DNA of 32,643 nucleotides, from contig JAJDAH010000004.1 in NCBI GenBank assembly GCA_029261965.1, positions 1-32,643 of the forward strand, given 5' to 3'. Source of the stretch: Polyangiaceae bacterium (lineage in GTDB: Bacteria; Myxococcota_A; Polyangia; Polyangiales; Polyangiaceae). A program made the position numbers and the translations under genes. Below the pieces are notes generated by a model, which saw only the letters and a program-made list of their open reading frames with translations, had not been told where the DNA came from and ran no database searches. Below, one piece after another: positions 1,835 through 4,613 of the stretch. Position 1 is the stretch's first letter. Every line of letters begins with the position of its first letter.

Positions 1835-2191
1835 CTAGAGAATTTCGAGCACGTTTTCGGGCGGACGCCCGATGGCGGCTTTTTTGCCAACGACCACCAC
1901 CGGTCGTTCGAGCAAGATCGGGTGCTGGTTGATGGCTTTGGCGATCGCGGCCTTCGAGCTCGACGGCGTCAGACCGAGCTCCTTGTAGGGGGCTTCCTTT
2001 TTCCGCAATAAATCGTGTGGCTCGATGCCGAGCATGTCGACGATCTCGGTGACACGTTTCGCCGACGGTGGGGACTGCAAATAGAGGATGACCTCCGGCG
2101 TGACGCCTTGCTCCTCGAGCAGGGCCAGGGTCTGCCGGCTCTTCGAGCACTTGGGGTTGTGATAGATGCTGACTTTTTTGGCCATCGTCAT
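1835..2191 (-). CDS. arsC: ArsC-family (YfgD-like) glutaredoxin-type reductase
   Basis: A 118-residue thioredoxin-fold protein of the ArsC/Spx family. The N-terminus has the active-site loop YHNPKCSKSRQ with the reactive cysteine at residue 15, and the C-terminus has the family tail ERPVVVV..KAAIGRPPE. The overall sequence resembles E. coli YfgD more than plasmid ArsC, so true arsenate reduction is plausible but unproven. The start overlaps the proC stop as ATGA (2188-2191), indicating translational coupling; an alternative ATG lies at 2185. No ars repressor or efflux gene is nearby, which argues against a dedicated arsenic-resistance operon. Confidence 0.9.
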   Translation of the reverse strand: MTMAKKVSIYHNPKCSKSRQTLALLEEQGVTPEVILYLQSPPSAKRVTEIVDMLGIEPHDLLRKKEAPYKELGLTPSSSKAAIAKAINQHPILLERPVVVVGKKAAIGRPPENVLEIL

Positions 2192-3027
2192 CGTCCCTTG
2201 TCGAGCTTGGCGCTCATGATTTCGCCGAGCTCGATGGCGCGTTTAGTGGCGGTGTCCACCGCGTCGATGAGCGTTCGCCGAAGCCCGCCGGATTCGAGTG
2301 TGTGCAAGCCAGCGATGGCGGTTCCGCCGGGGCTAGTCACCATGTCCTTGAGGCGCCCAGGGTGCTCGCCGGTGTCTAGAAGCAGCTTGGCTGAACCGTA
2401 GACAGTCTGCGCGGCGAGCAAGAGCGCGGTATCGCGATGCAGTCCGACCTTCACTCCGCCGTCGGCGAGCGCGTCGATCATGAGCATGACGTAGGCTGGC
2501 CCGCTGCCGCTCAGGCCTGTCACGGCGTCGATGAGCGACTCGTCGAGCACCACGGTGCGGCCGACGGCGTCGAACAGGGCGCGAGCAAGCTCGACGTCTT
2601 CGGGGGTCGCGTGGGATCCCGGTGCCACCCCCGTGGCACCGGCCAGGACGATGGCCGCCGTGTTCGGCATCGCCCGCACCACACGAACGCCCGGTGGCAA
2701 CTGGGATTCGATGACACTGATGGGTACACCCGCGGCTATCGAGACCACGAGGGTCTTTGGGCCGAAGGAGTTGCGACTCGCTTCGAGCACCCGGTCGATC
2801 ACCTGGGGTTTGACCGCGAGTACGAGCACGTCGGACCACGCGATGAGATCGTCGTTGGCGGCGAACTTGGTGATGCCGTGCTCGGCGGCCAGGTCGTCGA
2901 GGTGGTCGGAGCGCACGTCGCTCGCGCCGATTTGCGCCGCCTCGACCGTTCCGCCGGCGATCATCCCCCGGATGAGCGCGCCGGCCATGTTGCCCGCTCC
3001 GAGCATTCCGATCTTTTGACCCTTCAT
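2188..3027 (-). CDS. proC: Pyrroline-5-carboxylate reductase
   Basis: The last step of proline synthesis: NAD(P)H-dependent reduction of 1-pyrroline-5-carboxylate to L-proline in the cytoplasm. The 279-residue length is normal for the family. The N-terminal Rossmann nucleotide site is KIGMLGAGNMAGAL (residues 5-18). The C-terminal dimerisation and active-site region contains GLSGSGPAYV and the conserved VTSPGGTAIAGL stretch. ATG start at 3025-3027. It is followed with a 4-base overlap by the arsC-like gene and preceded by the repeat-rich spacer separating it from dnaJ on the same strand. Confidence 0.97.
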   Translation of the reverse strand: MKGQKIGMLGAGNMAGALIRGMIAGGTVEAAQIGASDVRSDHLDDLAAEHGITKFAANDDLIAWSDVLVLAVKPQVIDRVLEASRNSFGPKTLVVSIAAGVPISVIESQLPPGVRVVRAMPNTAAIVLAGATGVAPGSHATPEDVELARALFDAVGRTVVLDESLIDAVTGLSGSGPAYVMLMIDALADGGVKVGLHRDTALLLAAQTVYGSAKLLLDTGEHPGRLKDMVTSPGGTAIAGLHTLESGGLRRTLIDAVDTATKRAIELGEIMSAKLDKGR

Positions 3028-3039
3028 GATTTCCCCAGG

Positions 3040-3132
3040 CTAGTCCCCTGGATCTGTGATTGCTTACAAGACTCGGCGGCCCCTCCGGGGCGAGGCTGCC
3101 GAGTCTTGACGGCAAAAGGCACAGATCTGATC
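3040..3132. repeat. Imperfect palindromic element with nested stems
   Basis: An 11-bp perfect inverted repeat CAAGACTCGGC/GCCGAGTCTTG (3067-3077 and 3098-3108) is enclosed by GATCTGTG/CACAGATC (3051-3058 and 3120-3127). A further GCCCC/GGGGC hairpin sits in the loop. The left half of this element is repeated at 3394-3439. It lies just upstream of proC and has no coding potential that I trust. Confidence 0.75.
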
Positions 3133-3152
3133 CGTGTCCCGATTCTTTCCAG

Positions 3153-3181
3153 AGTGTGGTGGACTCCTGGTCCACCACACT
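3153..3181. repeat. 12-bp perfect inverted repeat (strong hairpin)
   Basis: AGTGTGGTGGAC (3153-3164) pairs with GTCCACCACACT (3170-3181) around the 5-nt loop TCCTG. It could act as a transcription terminator or RNA-processing stem in the dnaJ-proC spacer, but there is no U tract on either side, so a repeat-element origin is equally likely. Confidence 0.75.
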
Positions 3182-3398
3182 AGTGCTCTGTCTCGAAAGT
3201 AACAATCGTAACCGCCGACGGCCCCCCTCGGGTGAGGGCCGCCAGCGGTTACGGGTCGCCACTGCTGTAGACAGACCCTTCCCTGTTTCCTTGCGGTGCT
3301 TCGCACCGCGAGTGCCGCGTCTCCCGCCGAAATCCCGAGCTGTGCGAGAATACGTGCCGCGCGAATTCCCTTCGCGACTCTTGAGACGCGGCACTAGT
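3179..3398. mobile_element. Possible MITE-like element bounded by ACTAGTGC ends
   Basis: The two ends are imperfect inverted copies: ACTAGTGCtctGTCTCgaaAGT at the left and, on the opposite strand at the right, ACTAGTGCcgcGTCTCaagAGT. The 220-bp interior holds more stems: GTAACCGCCGACGGCCC (3208-3224) against 3236-3252 with two mismatches, GCGGTGC/GCACCGC (3293-3309), TCTGTCT/AGACAGA (3187-3193, 3269-3275), and 13-bp AGTGCCGCGTCTC/GAGACGCGGCACT (3311-3323, 3383-3395). No ORF for a transposase. Calling it mobile is inference from structure; several smaller repeat units placed side by side would look the same. Confidence 0.45.
3311..3395. repeat. 85-bp element with 13-bp perfect terminal inverted repeats
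   Basis: AGTGCCGCGTCTC at 3311-3323 is the exact reverse complement of 3383-3395. A smaller GCGAA/TTCGC stem lies inside, near the right arm. The arms alone would make a very stable stem with a roughly 59-nt loop. Confidence 0.7.
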
Positions 3399-3439
3399 CC
3401 CCTGGATCAGTGATGGCGTACAAAACTCGGCGGCCCCTC
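3394..3439 (+). repeat. Second copy of a 46-bp imperfect direct repeat (first copy 3040-3085)
   Basis: The copy begins CTAGTCCCCTGGATC and matches 3040-3085 at 42 of 46 positions by eye. The similarity stops abruptly after CGGCCCCTC: copy 1 continues into its palindrome, copy 2 continues into unrelated sequence. The pair brackets the stem-loop block in the same orientation. Confidence 0.8.
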
Positions 3440-3474
3440 AACCGCCGGCGGCGCTCGCCCCAGGTGAGGTTCGC

Positions 3475-3496
3475 GCCTTCCGGCCCGTCCGGAGGC
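3475..3496 (-). terminator. GC-rich hairpin after dnaJ
   Basis: GCCTTCCGG (3475-3483) pairs with CCGGAGGC (3489-3496) with one bulged base, starting about 7 nt past the dnaJ stop. There is no T-run after it, so it is a weak terminator candidate or a 3'-end stabilising stem. Confidence 0.35.
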
Positions 3497-3503
3497 TAAG
3501 CAA

Positions 3504-4613
3504 CTAACCGAAGAGGTTCTTCAGCTTCTCGACGAAGGTGCGCTGCTGTGGCTGGACGTCCTCGCCGAGCTCGCCCGCGAGCTCTTCGATGAGAGACCGC
3601 GCTTTGTCGCTGAGCTGGGTCGGAACCTCCACCGAGACTTCGACGAGTTGGTCTCCACGACCCGAGCGCAGTCGGTGCGGCATTCCCTTGCCGCGGATCC
3701 GCAGGACCGAGCCTGGCTGGGTGGCGGGTGGAACCCGCATCTTCACTTTTCCTTCGAGAGTGGGCACGTCGAACTCGCCGCCGAGCGCAGCCTGCGCGAA
3801 CGTGATGGGCATCGAGCAGATGACGTCGCTTCCGTCGCGGCGAAAAAGTGGATGCGTCTCGATTTCGATGATCAGCTCGAGATTGCCGGCAGGGCCGTCG
3901 GGGCCCGTGCGGTTTCCCGCGCCCTCGATCACGCGACTCGAGCCGGCCTCCACCCCTGCGGGCACGGAGACTTCGAGGGTGCGCAAACGCTTGAGCAACC
4001 CCACCCCCGAGCAGCCGCTGCACGGCTTGGTGGGGATCCGGCCGGAGCCGTGGCAGCTCGAGCACGCGCGTTCGACCGCGAGAGGGAGCACGCCCTGTTG
4101 GAACCGCACCTTTCCTTGGCCGTTGCAAGCCGTACACATGTCGACAGGCGTCCCCGGCTCGCCGCCTCGGCCTCGGCAGCGGTCGCAGACGTCGACCCGT
4201 TCGTATTCGATTTCTTTTTTGCACCCGAGGGCGGCCTCTTGGAACTGGATCTTGAGACGCTTCTTGATGTTCCCGCGCTCACCGGTTCGTATTCCGAAGG
4301 CGTTCAAGATGTCGCCGAACAAGCCGTCGAGGCCGATGTTGATGTCGACACCGACGCCGCCCGGGCCGCCACCCCCGGCGGGCCCCGCGAACGCGGACGC
4401 TCCGAACCTGTCGTACATGCGACGTTTGTTCGGGTCGCTCAACAACTGGTAGGCGTCGTTGATCTCGTTGAAGCGCTGGCCCGCCTCGGGGGCGGTGTTC
4501 TTGTCAGGATGGTACTTGGCGGCGAGTTTGCGAAAGGCTCGCTTGATCTCGTCATCTGACGCACGCTGACCGACGCTGAGCACCTCGTACGGGTCGCGCA
4601 CGCCGTGTCTCAT
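3504..4613 (-). CDS. dnaJ: Chaperone protein DnaJ (Hsp40)
   Basis: Co-chaperone that delivers unfolded clients to DnaK and stimulates its ATPase through the J domain. The 369-residue protein shows full class-I layout: J domain at residues 6-70 with HPD at 35-37, a glycine-rich linker (about 71-105), four zinc-finger repeats (CDRCRGRG at 143, CTACNGQG at 160, CSSCHGSG at 184, CSGCSGVG at 198), then the client-binding beta domains and dimerisation tail. The start is the ATG at 4611-4613; a second J-domain-compatible start is not visible. It is not next to grpE-dnaK, which lie about 13 kb away on the other strand, so the Hsp70 system is split here. Repeat-rich DNA follows its 3' end. Confidence 0.96.

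Follow-up and report, generated by a model that had tools for sequence, protein, structure and literature searches.

Two families of CTAG-bordered miniature elements, one best read as IS630-derived, stacked end to end between dnaJ and proC in a Polyangiaceae bacterium

RUP of Streptococcus pneumoniae, a MITE derived from IS630-Spn1, is described in the accessible part of PMC2229807 as a non-coding element of about 100 bp that is present in many copies and uses TA as its target; its mobilisation by an IS630-type transposase was deduced from its ends. RUP provides a precedent for a MITE mobilised by IS630. A preference of IS630 for the TA of CTAG has been published (Tenzen and Ohtsubo, 1991, as cited in PMC2170065), and insertion into TA with duplication of the TA has been shown in vitro for an IS630-family transposase (PMC2170065, in its accessible part). 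Targeting of CTAG is not unique to IS630, according to the accessible parts of two further reports. MITEPsy1 of Pseudomonas syringae, a 100-nt MITE, produces a 4-nt duplication on insertion, which takes place after CTAG or YTAA, and its ends resemble ISPsy2 of the IS5 family (PMC3189936). TnRErm46 of Rhodococcus equi, which belongs to the IS481 family, also targets CTAG (PMC6794481).

The window analyzed here, a stretch of 32,643 nucleotides from the genome of a Polyangiaceae bacterium (GCA_029261965.1, contig JAJDAH010000004.1), contains a nest of palindromes between dnaJ and proC that is very probably a stack of MITEs, composed of an IS630-derived element (B) and a second CTAG-targeting element (A) that was itself probably moved in trans by an IS630-type transposase. 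Elements A and B are new families of a known kind, IS630-type or CTAG-targeting miniature elements, and their stacking is explained. Both are non-coding and numerous like RUP, but RUP differs in sequence and host, often lies in regions of IS elements, and CTAG stops are not part of its description in the accessible text (PMC2229807). MITEPsy1 differs in having IS5-type rather than IS630-type ends (PMC3189936). TnRErm46 shares the CTAG target of A and B but is large and encodes its own IS481-family transposase, and the accessible part of its report describes neither miniature elements nor a genome-wide count of insertions at stop codons (PMC6794481). The features of the locus are as follows.

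2188 to 3027, minus strand: proC, pyrroline-5-carboxylate reductase, flanking gene (Pfam P5CR_dimer, 8e-41)
3040 to 3183, plus strand: element A, complete, CTAG to CTAG, 97% to the family consensus
3060 to 3115, plus strand: long internal hairpin of A, left module (inverted-repeat search and folding)
3151 to 3183, plus strand: right terminal hairpin of A, AGTGTGGTGGAC/GTCCACCACACT (inverted-repeat search and folding)
3180 to 3183, no strand: CTAG common to A and B (sequence, BLAST borders)
3180 to 3397, plus strand: element B, complete, CTAG to CTAG, with IS630-type ends, 97% to the family consensus
3180 to 3200, plus strand: left end of B, CTAGTG-CTCT-GTCTCGAAAGT (sequence)
3207 to 3253, plus strand: hairpin in the left half of B, terminator-like on the minus strand (inverted-repeat search, terminator scan)
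3290 to 3312, plus strand: short central hairpin of B (inverted-repeat search, folding)
3311 to 3395, plus strand: right half of B with a perfect 13-bp stem, AGTGCCGCGTCTC/GAGACGCGGCACT, the inner arm of which itself resembles an IS630-type end
3377 to 3397, minus strand: right end of B, CTAGTG-CCGC-GTCTCAAGAGT
3394 to 3397, no strand: CTAG common to B and the truncated A (sequence, BLAST borders)
3394 to 3439, plus strand: A', a truncated A, consensus positions 1-46, 93% (direct repeat)
3440 to 3469, plus strand: probable old, decayed piece of the left half of B (local alignment)
3504 to 4613, minus strand: dnaJ, flanking gene, stop at 3504 (Pfam DnaJ, DnaJ_C, DnaJ_CXXCXGXG)

Positions 3040-3439 thus consist of three repeat copies placed end to end, with one CTAG per joint, and the first CTAG lies 13 bp from the start of proC at 3027. 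The dense cluster of inverted repeats that the initial annotation had reported between the two genes is real. An inverted-repeat search recovered the stems at 3060-3086/3089-3115 (27 nt, 78%), 3153-3164/3170-3181 (12 nt, 100%), 3207-3224/3236-3253 (18 nt, 89%), 3290-3299/3303-3312 (10 nt, 90%), and 3311-3323/3383-3395 (13 nt, 100%), and folding of 3040-3496 as single-stranded DNA was far beyond that of shuffled sequences (z = -7.7, with none of 100 shuffles as good). The same search gave a 46-nt direct repeat between 3040-3085 and 3394-3439 (91%), which was absent from that annotation. The stretch at 3440-3469 is probably an older remnant of B, since it aligned to the left hairpin of B with a local alignment score of 31, whereas none of 500 single-base shuffles exceeded 29. 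A short hairpin seen by eye at about 3476-3495, beside the dnaJ stop, was assigned to neither A nor B.

Counted across the genome (9.59 Mb, 480 contigs), the units are multi-copy: A was found in at least 41 places and B in at least 36, with E values up to 0.01. These counts derive from scoring 40 of 86 (A) and 40 of 59 (B) first-look candidates and include partial copies, some of which lie at contig ends, so that in a few cases the halves of a single copy may have been counted separately. Fourteen near-complete A copies were 83-98% identical to a consensus running from CTAG to CTAG, and 10 near-complete B copies were 85-97% identical to a CTAG-to-CTAG consensus of 219 bp. Both elements are short, dispersed in many copies, and contain no transposase gene. 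A search of a further 182 genomes from the order (E ≤ 1e-6, three candidates scored per genome) detected neither element. A search of 58 relatives returned two short matches of 32-35 nt, the B-end pattern with at most one mismatch gave single matches in two of 58 relatives, and the plasmid collection gave no match. Loss of a hairpin is seen in several copies (A 1-28+70-143 and B 1-35+73-219 are examples), and a derivative of A that fuses about position 19 to about position 90 occurred in five contigs and beside the B copy of contig C318. At the borders of B, the bases inside are constant and those outside vary, so no duplication wider than CTAG is seen; many single copies have a mutated or lost border. 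Just to the right of a truncated A copy (L027, G000 C48), a short tandem run of CTAG was observed (ctagctagctagctag). The A copies L011, L018, and L030 contained paired changes in both stem arms, such as C-G to G-C in L018, a pattern resembling templating of one arm by the other; palindromic DNA can copy changes from arm to arm.

The two ends of B both read CTAGTG-N4-GTCTCAAAAGT, with an N4 that differs between left and right. This end pattern was present in 78 loci of GTDB genomes, and tblastn detected an Acidovorax transposase in 32 of them. In Acidovorax temperans, a 1186-bp insertion sequence (L108:3706-4891) has CTAG borders and the B-type end motif on both sides, CTAGTG-N4-GTCTCAAAA, although its right end reads AAAAAT instead of AAAAGT, one base off at the inner edge. 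Its 359-aa product belongs to the IS630 family (Pfam DDE_3; 293 bits to NCBIfam NF033545, for which the cutoff is 100). Elements A and B differ from such insertion sequences in lacking a transposase, in the unlike left and right N4 of B, and in having a separate hairpin at each end. Some of the other B-end loci contained elements of 167-451 bp without that transposase; those of Pseudomonas (L153, 167 bp), a deltaproteobacterium (L169, 330 bp), and Planctomycetota (L176, 169 bp) have the same terminal motif and CTAG borders. Elements of this type fold mostly as long left-to-right palindromes, whereas A and B fold as separate hairpins.

A DDE_3 search of the Polyangiaceae genome itself gave one match, an IS630 relic, and thus no intact IS630 in the 480-contig assembly; the Acidovorax protein retrieved the same relic and two weak partial matches (E 0.013 and 0.85). 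The stop codon of the relic lies inside an end motif, and the tip of the motif is 13 bp further out. The relic end agreed with the right end of B at 26 of 40 bases and with the left end at 25, while nothing in 778 kb of this genome, searched on both strands, matched the right end of B at more than 25. The agreement is modest, but the position beside a transposase is telling. Judged from sequence, B is best read as an IS630-derived MITE because its ends match those of intact IS630-family insertion sequences and the end of the relic in its own genome. The palindromes had initially been described as having no known label; this does not apply to B, but it holds for A, for which no transposase with A-type ends was found.

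Element B could itself be a fused pair of shorter IS630 MITEs (positions 1 to about 100 and about 130 to 219), each internally symmetric, that move as one, and the chance of this falls only a little short of even. The two halves are palindromic independently of one another. The outer right end has the same N4 as the inner arm of the right half (CGAGTG-CCGC-GTCTC), which looks like an IS630-type end, and the N4 of the left half differs. Copies consisting of one half also exist (L055, 130-219; L056, 137-219; L053, 1-84; L058, 1-89), but deletion may account for them, and they lack a clean CTAG at the inner border. Furthermore, MITEs of Desulfobacterales also have unlike left and right N4 yet are unfused.

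The origin of A is less direct. Its ends share only CTAGT-N4-TGGAYC, and its borders are CTAG as in B. With at most one mismatch, the A-end pattern matched this genome alone among 377 genomes of the phylum, and the exact pattern was absent from the viral contigs. No transposase with A-type ends occurred among 30 IS630 loci of the order, taken from more than 150 listed matches. One IS630 of the order (L186), with ends CTAGTGCGGGGATC and CTAGTGCGGGATTC, has GATC/GATT in a similar place to A, a weak resemblance. An A-end match at L183 was set aside, because by our arithmetic chance alone would give about as much and because it faces away from the transposase. Element A is probably a second CTAG-targeting miniature element served in trans by an IS630-type transposase; its placement in IS630 is only the likelier guess because the end similarity is short, no matching transposase was found, and CTAG is not unique to IS630.

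An unlikely but realistic alternative is that the transposase responsible for A came from a different CTAG-targeting family, such as IS481 or IS5, and that A stacks with B only through the common CTAG. The short sequence shared by the A ends leaves room for this, and both families provide examples, namely the R. equi transposon (PMC6794481) and MITEPsy1, which has IS5-like ends and inserts after CTAG or YTAA (PMC3189936). However, the CTAGT-N4-core layout of A is like that of B, the IS630 ends of L186 resemble those of A, if weakly, and both ends of A are unlike the IS481 inverted repeat given in the accessible part of PMC6794481.

Far less probable is an origin of A as a REP- or BIME-like element moved by a Y1 (RAYT) transposase, which would account for ends in the form of separate hairpins, a tetranucleotide foot, and scarcely any terminal inverted repeat. 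In known REPs, one foot carries GTAG. Element A does fold as two separate hairpins, and the genome contains three genes with a Y1_Tnp domain, but A has CTAG on both borders as in B and shares junctions with B. In addition, the loci of about 3.2 kb around the three Y1 genes contained neither A nor B, with BLAST matches of only 11-22 nt at E ≤ 1, and the Y1 origin was rejected since no A or B adjoins any of these genes. Two of the Y1 genes, L259 and L260 (G000 C260 and C8), are RAYT-like and share 81% identity across 649 nt. At L260:279-800, diverged repeats recur in tandem about every 140 bp, and a 55-bp tandem pair lies at 1196-1310.

The IS630 reading of B and, as the likelier guess, of A offers a simple rule for the nest: end-to-end stacking follows when an element recreates the rare target that it uses. 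Insertion by the transposase would occur at the TA within CTAG and duplicate that TA; with G as the first base of the element and C as the last, CTAG would be rebuilt on both sides. Each insertion would turn one target into two, and later elements could land at the ends of earlier ones. Stacking therefore needs no special mechanism, as every insertion would regenerate CTAG at both ends. We infer this mechanism of transposition, the order of insertion, and the membership of A in IS630 from the sequences; we likewise infer target duplication in A and B, for which TA and CTAG fit alike as the duplicated unit. Junctions sharing CTAG were found for A-B and B-A' (C224) and for B-A (C243), and junctions sharing a one-base variant of CTAG for B-B (C239) and A-mini-B (C318), giving five shared junctions in four contigs. 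In contig C307 (L023), A lies inside B at an internal CTAG, as determined partly by eye, an arrangement consistent with target duplication. The initial annotation had suggested repeated insertion of small palindromic elements into one another. The repeated insertion is borne out by two multi-copy, CTAG-bordered families, but the elements here adjoin one another through CTAG, and nesting was seen at another locus, C307.

The extent of stacking is approximately what random targeting of CTAG predicts. The control described below implies about 2,300 CTAG sites outside gene interiors; by our own arithmetic, roughly 150 element-borne sites would then receive about 5 of 77 insertions by chance. IS630 insertion sequences stack in the same manner as A and B: in A. 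temperans (L165:926-4457), three IS630-type insertion sequences lie in a row with CTAG common at the joints, and the transposase of the middle one is 61% identical to the query, compared with 99.7% for the outer two.

The weakest alternative is a single large structured RNA, as also suggested initially, or a regulatory leader in the dnaJ-proC interval. In its favor, RNA folding was strong relative to shuffles (3040-3183, z = -5.5; 3180-3397, z = -4.9; none of 200 shuffles as good in either case), and two terminator-like hairpins are located on the proC strand, one in the left half of B and one spanning A' and sequence beyond. Covariation was compared across copies. In A, five pairs had changed on both sides compared with 1.6 in shuffles (2 of 500 reached five), and the covariation score was 0.058 compared with 0.040 (0 of 500 as high). 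However, a control with the structure of A slid by two columns equaled the true structure (6 two-sided pairs, 7 cells), and B showed no covariation (1 two-sided pair vs. 1.1 in shuffles). Substitution rates in A were similar in stems (77/1661, 4.6%) and loops (40/690, 5.8%; p = 0.25), and in B only slightly lower in stems (76/1658, 4.6%) than in loops (57/846, 6.7%; p = 0.03). A structured RNA is thus extremely unlikely and was rejected on the basis of the copy distribution, as the parts are dispersed repeats found independently elsewhere in the genome, of the lack of any Rfam match up to E = 1, and of the covariation tests. A simple sigma-70 scan found no promoter inside the nest. The two terminator-like hairpins suggest that the stack of elements may separate the transcription of dnaJ from that of proC.

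The insertion sites of A and B were compared with genes. Sixty places (30 A and 30 B) were fetched and 47 were used, after exclusion of L040, the nest of the window, any copy that was stacked or nested, and any copy lying at a contig end or close to one. The borders of truncated copies were set by hand, each site was rebuilt as the flanks plus one CTAG, and genes at the rebuilt sites were called by a simple home-made method based on codon usage. In the first count, the CTAG coincided with a gene stop in 23 of the 47 insertions, was intergenic in 22, and was inside a gene in two. The real in-frame triplet was TAG in 22 of the 23 stop cases. The remaining one, a B copy at L049 (G000 C376:2833-3051), reads TAA, and the coding frame continues for at least 500 codons past the insertion, so that this copy seems to interrupt one long reading frame and was recoded as inside (22 stop, 22 intergenic, and 3 inside). 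Under the gene model of the control, the same 47 insertions comprised 24 stop, 21 intergenic, and 2 inside. As a control, 778 kb of this genome (stretches L219-L258, with 4 sites near A- or B-like sequence masked) provided 460 CTAG sites, which were distributed as 53 stops, 133 intergenic, and 274 inside. In these stretches, CTAG occurred at 0.60 per kb compared with 3.18 expected from base composition and was thus 5.3 times rarer.

After recoding, insertions were enriched at stops relative to all other sites (p = 2.5e-8) and, more moderately, relative to intergenic sites (odds ratio 2.5, p = 0.012), and few were inside genes (inside vs. rest, p = 3e-13). Among copies with exact CTAG on both borders, 9 of 15 were at stops; with at most one mismatch per border, 10 of 20 were. 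The depletion inside genes is most simply attributed to selection, and the surplus of stops relative to other intergenic sites may reflect selection or targeting. An insertion at a C-TAG stop would leave the protein unchanged because the first G of the element rebuilds TAG. This stop-sparing arrangement has itself already been described for the IS481-family transposon of R. equi, whose CTAG border supplies the TAG stop of some target genes (PMC6794481, in its accessible part). The proposal that A and B use CTAG stops as safe landing sites genome-wide, with gene ends as a main niche in a GC-rich, CTAG-poor genome and with hairpins that may serve as portable terminators, is made tentatively, and we consider it less probable than its opposite. 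If true, the genome-wide stop excess for IS630-type MITEs and the terminator role would be new, and the result would suggest a way for transposons to insert at genes without damage to proteins. The nest in the window is intergenic, upstream of proC, and not at a stop.

In other genomes, 7 of 72 B-motif ends were at a stop (counted one-sided) compared with 5 of 73 background CTAG sites (counted two-sided), which does not show that the excess is general. This count used 62 of the 78 B-end loci and omitted six duplicate flanks and one short flank; by group, ends at stops numbered 2/27 in Acidovorax, 1/13 in Nevskia, 2/18 in Desulfobacterales and kin, 1/8 in other deltaproteobacteria, and 1/6 in Acidobacteria. 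Five proteins of the Polyangiaceae genome that terminate at such landings were compared with NCBIfam profiles. One of them, dipeptidase-like by eye, had no NCBIfam match. Most of the tested proteins end at their natural end, as the profiles reach near their last position: the last residue of a DnaE2-type polymerase corresponded to profile position 1047 of 1047, GltD ended at position 484 of 485, and an epimerase-like protein at 317 of 321, while for an aldehyde dehydrogenase the last positions were 484 of 526 in the best profile and 468 of 475 in the second.
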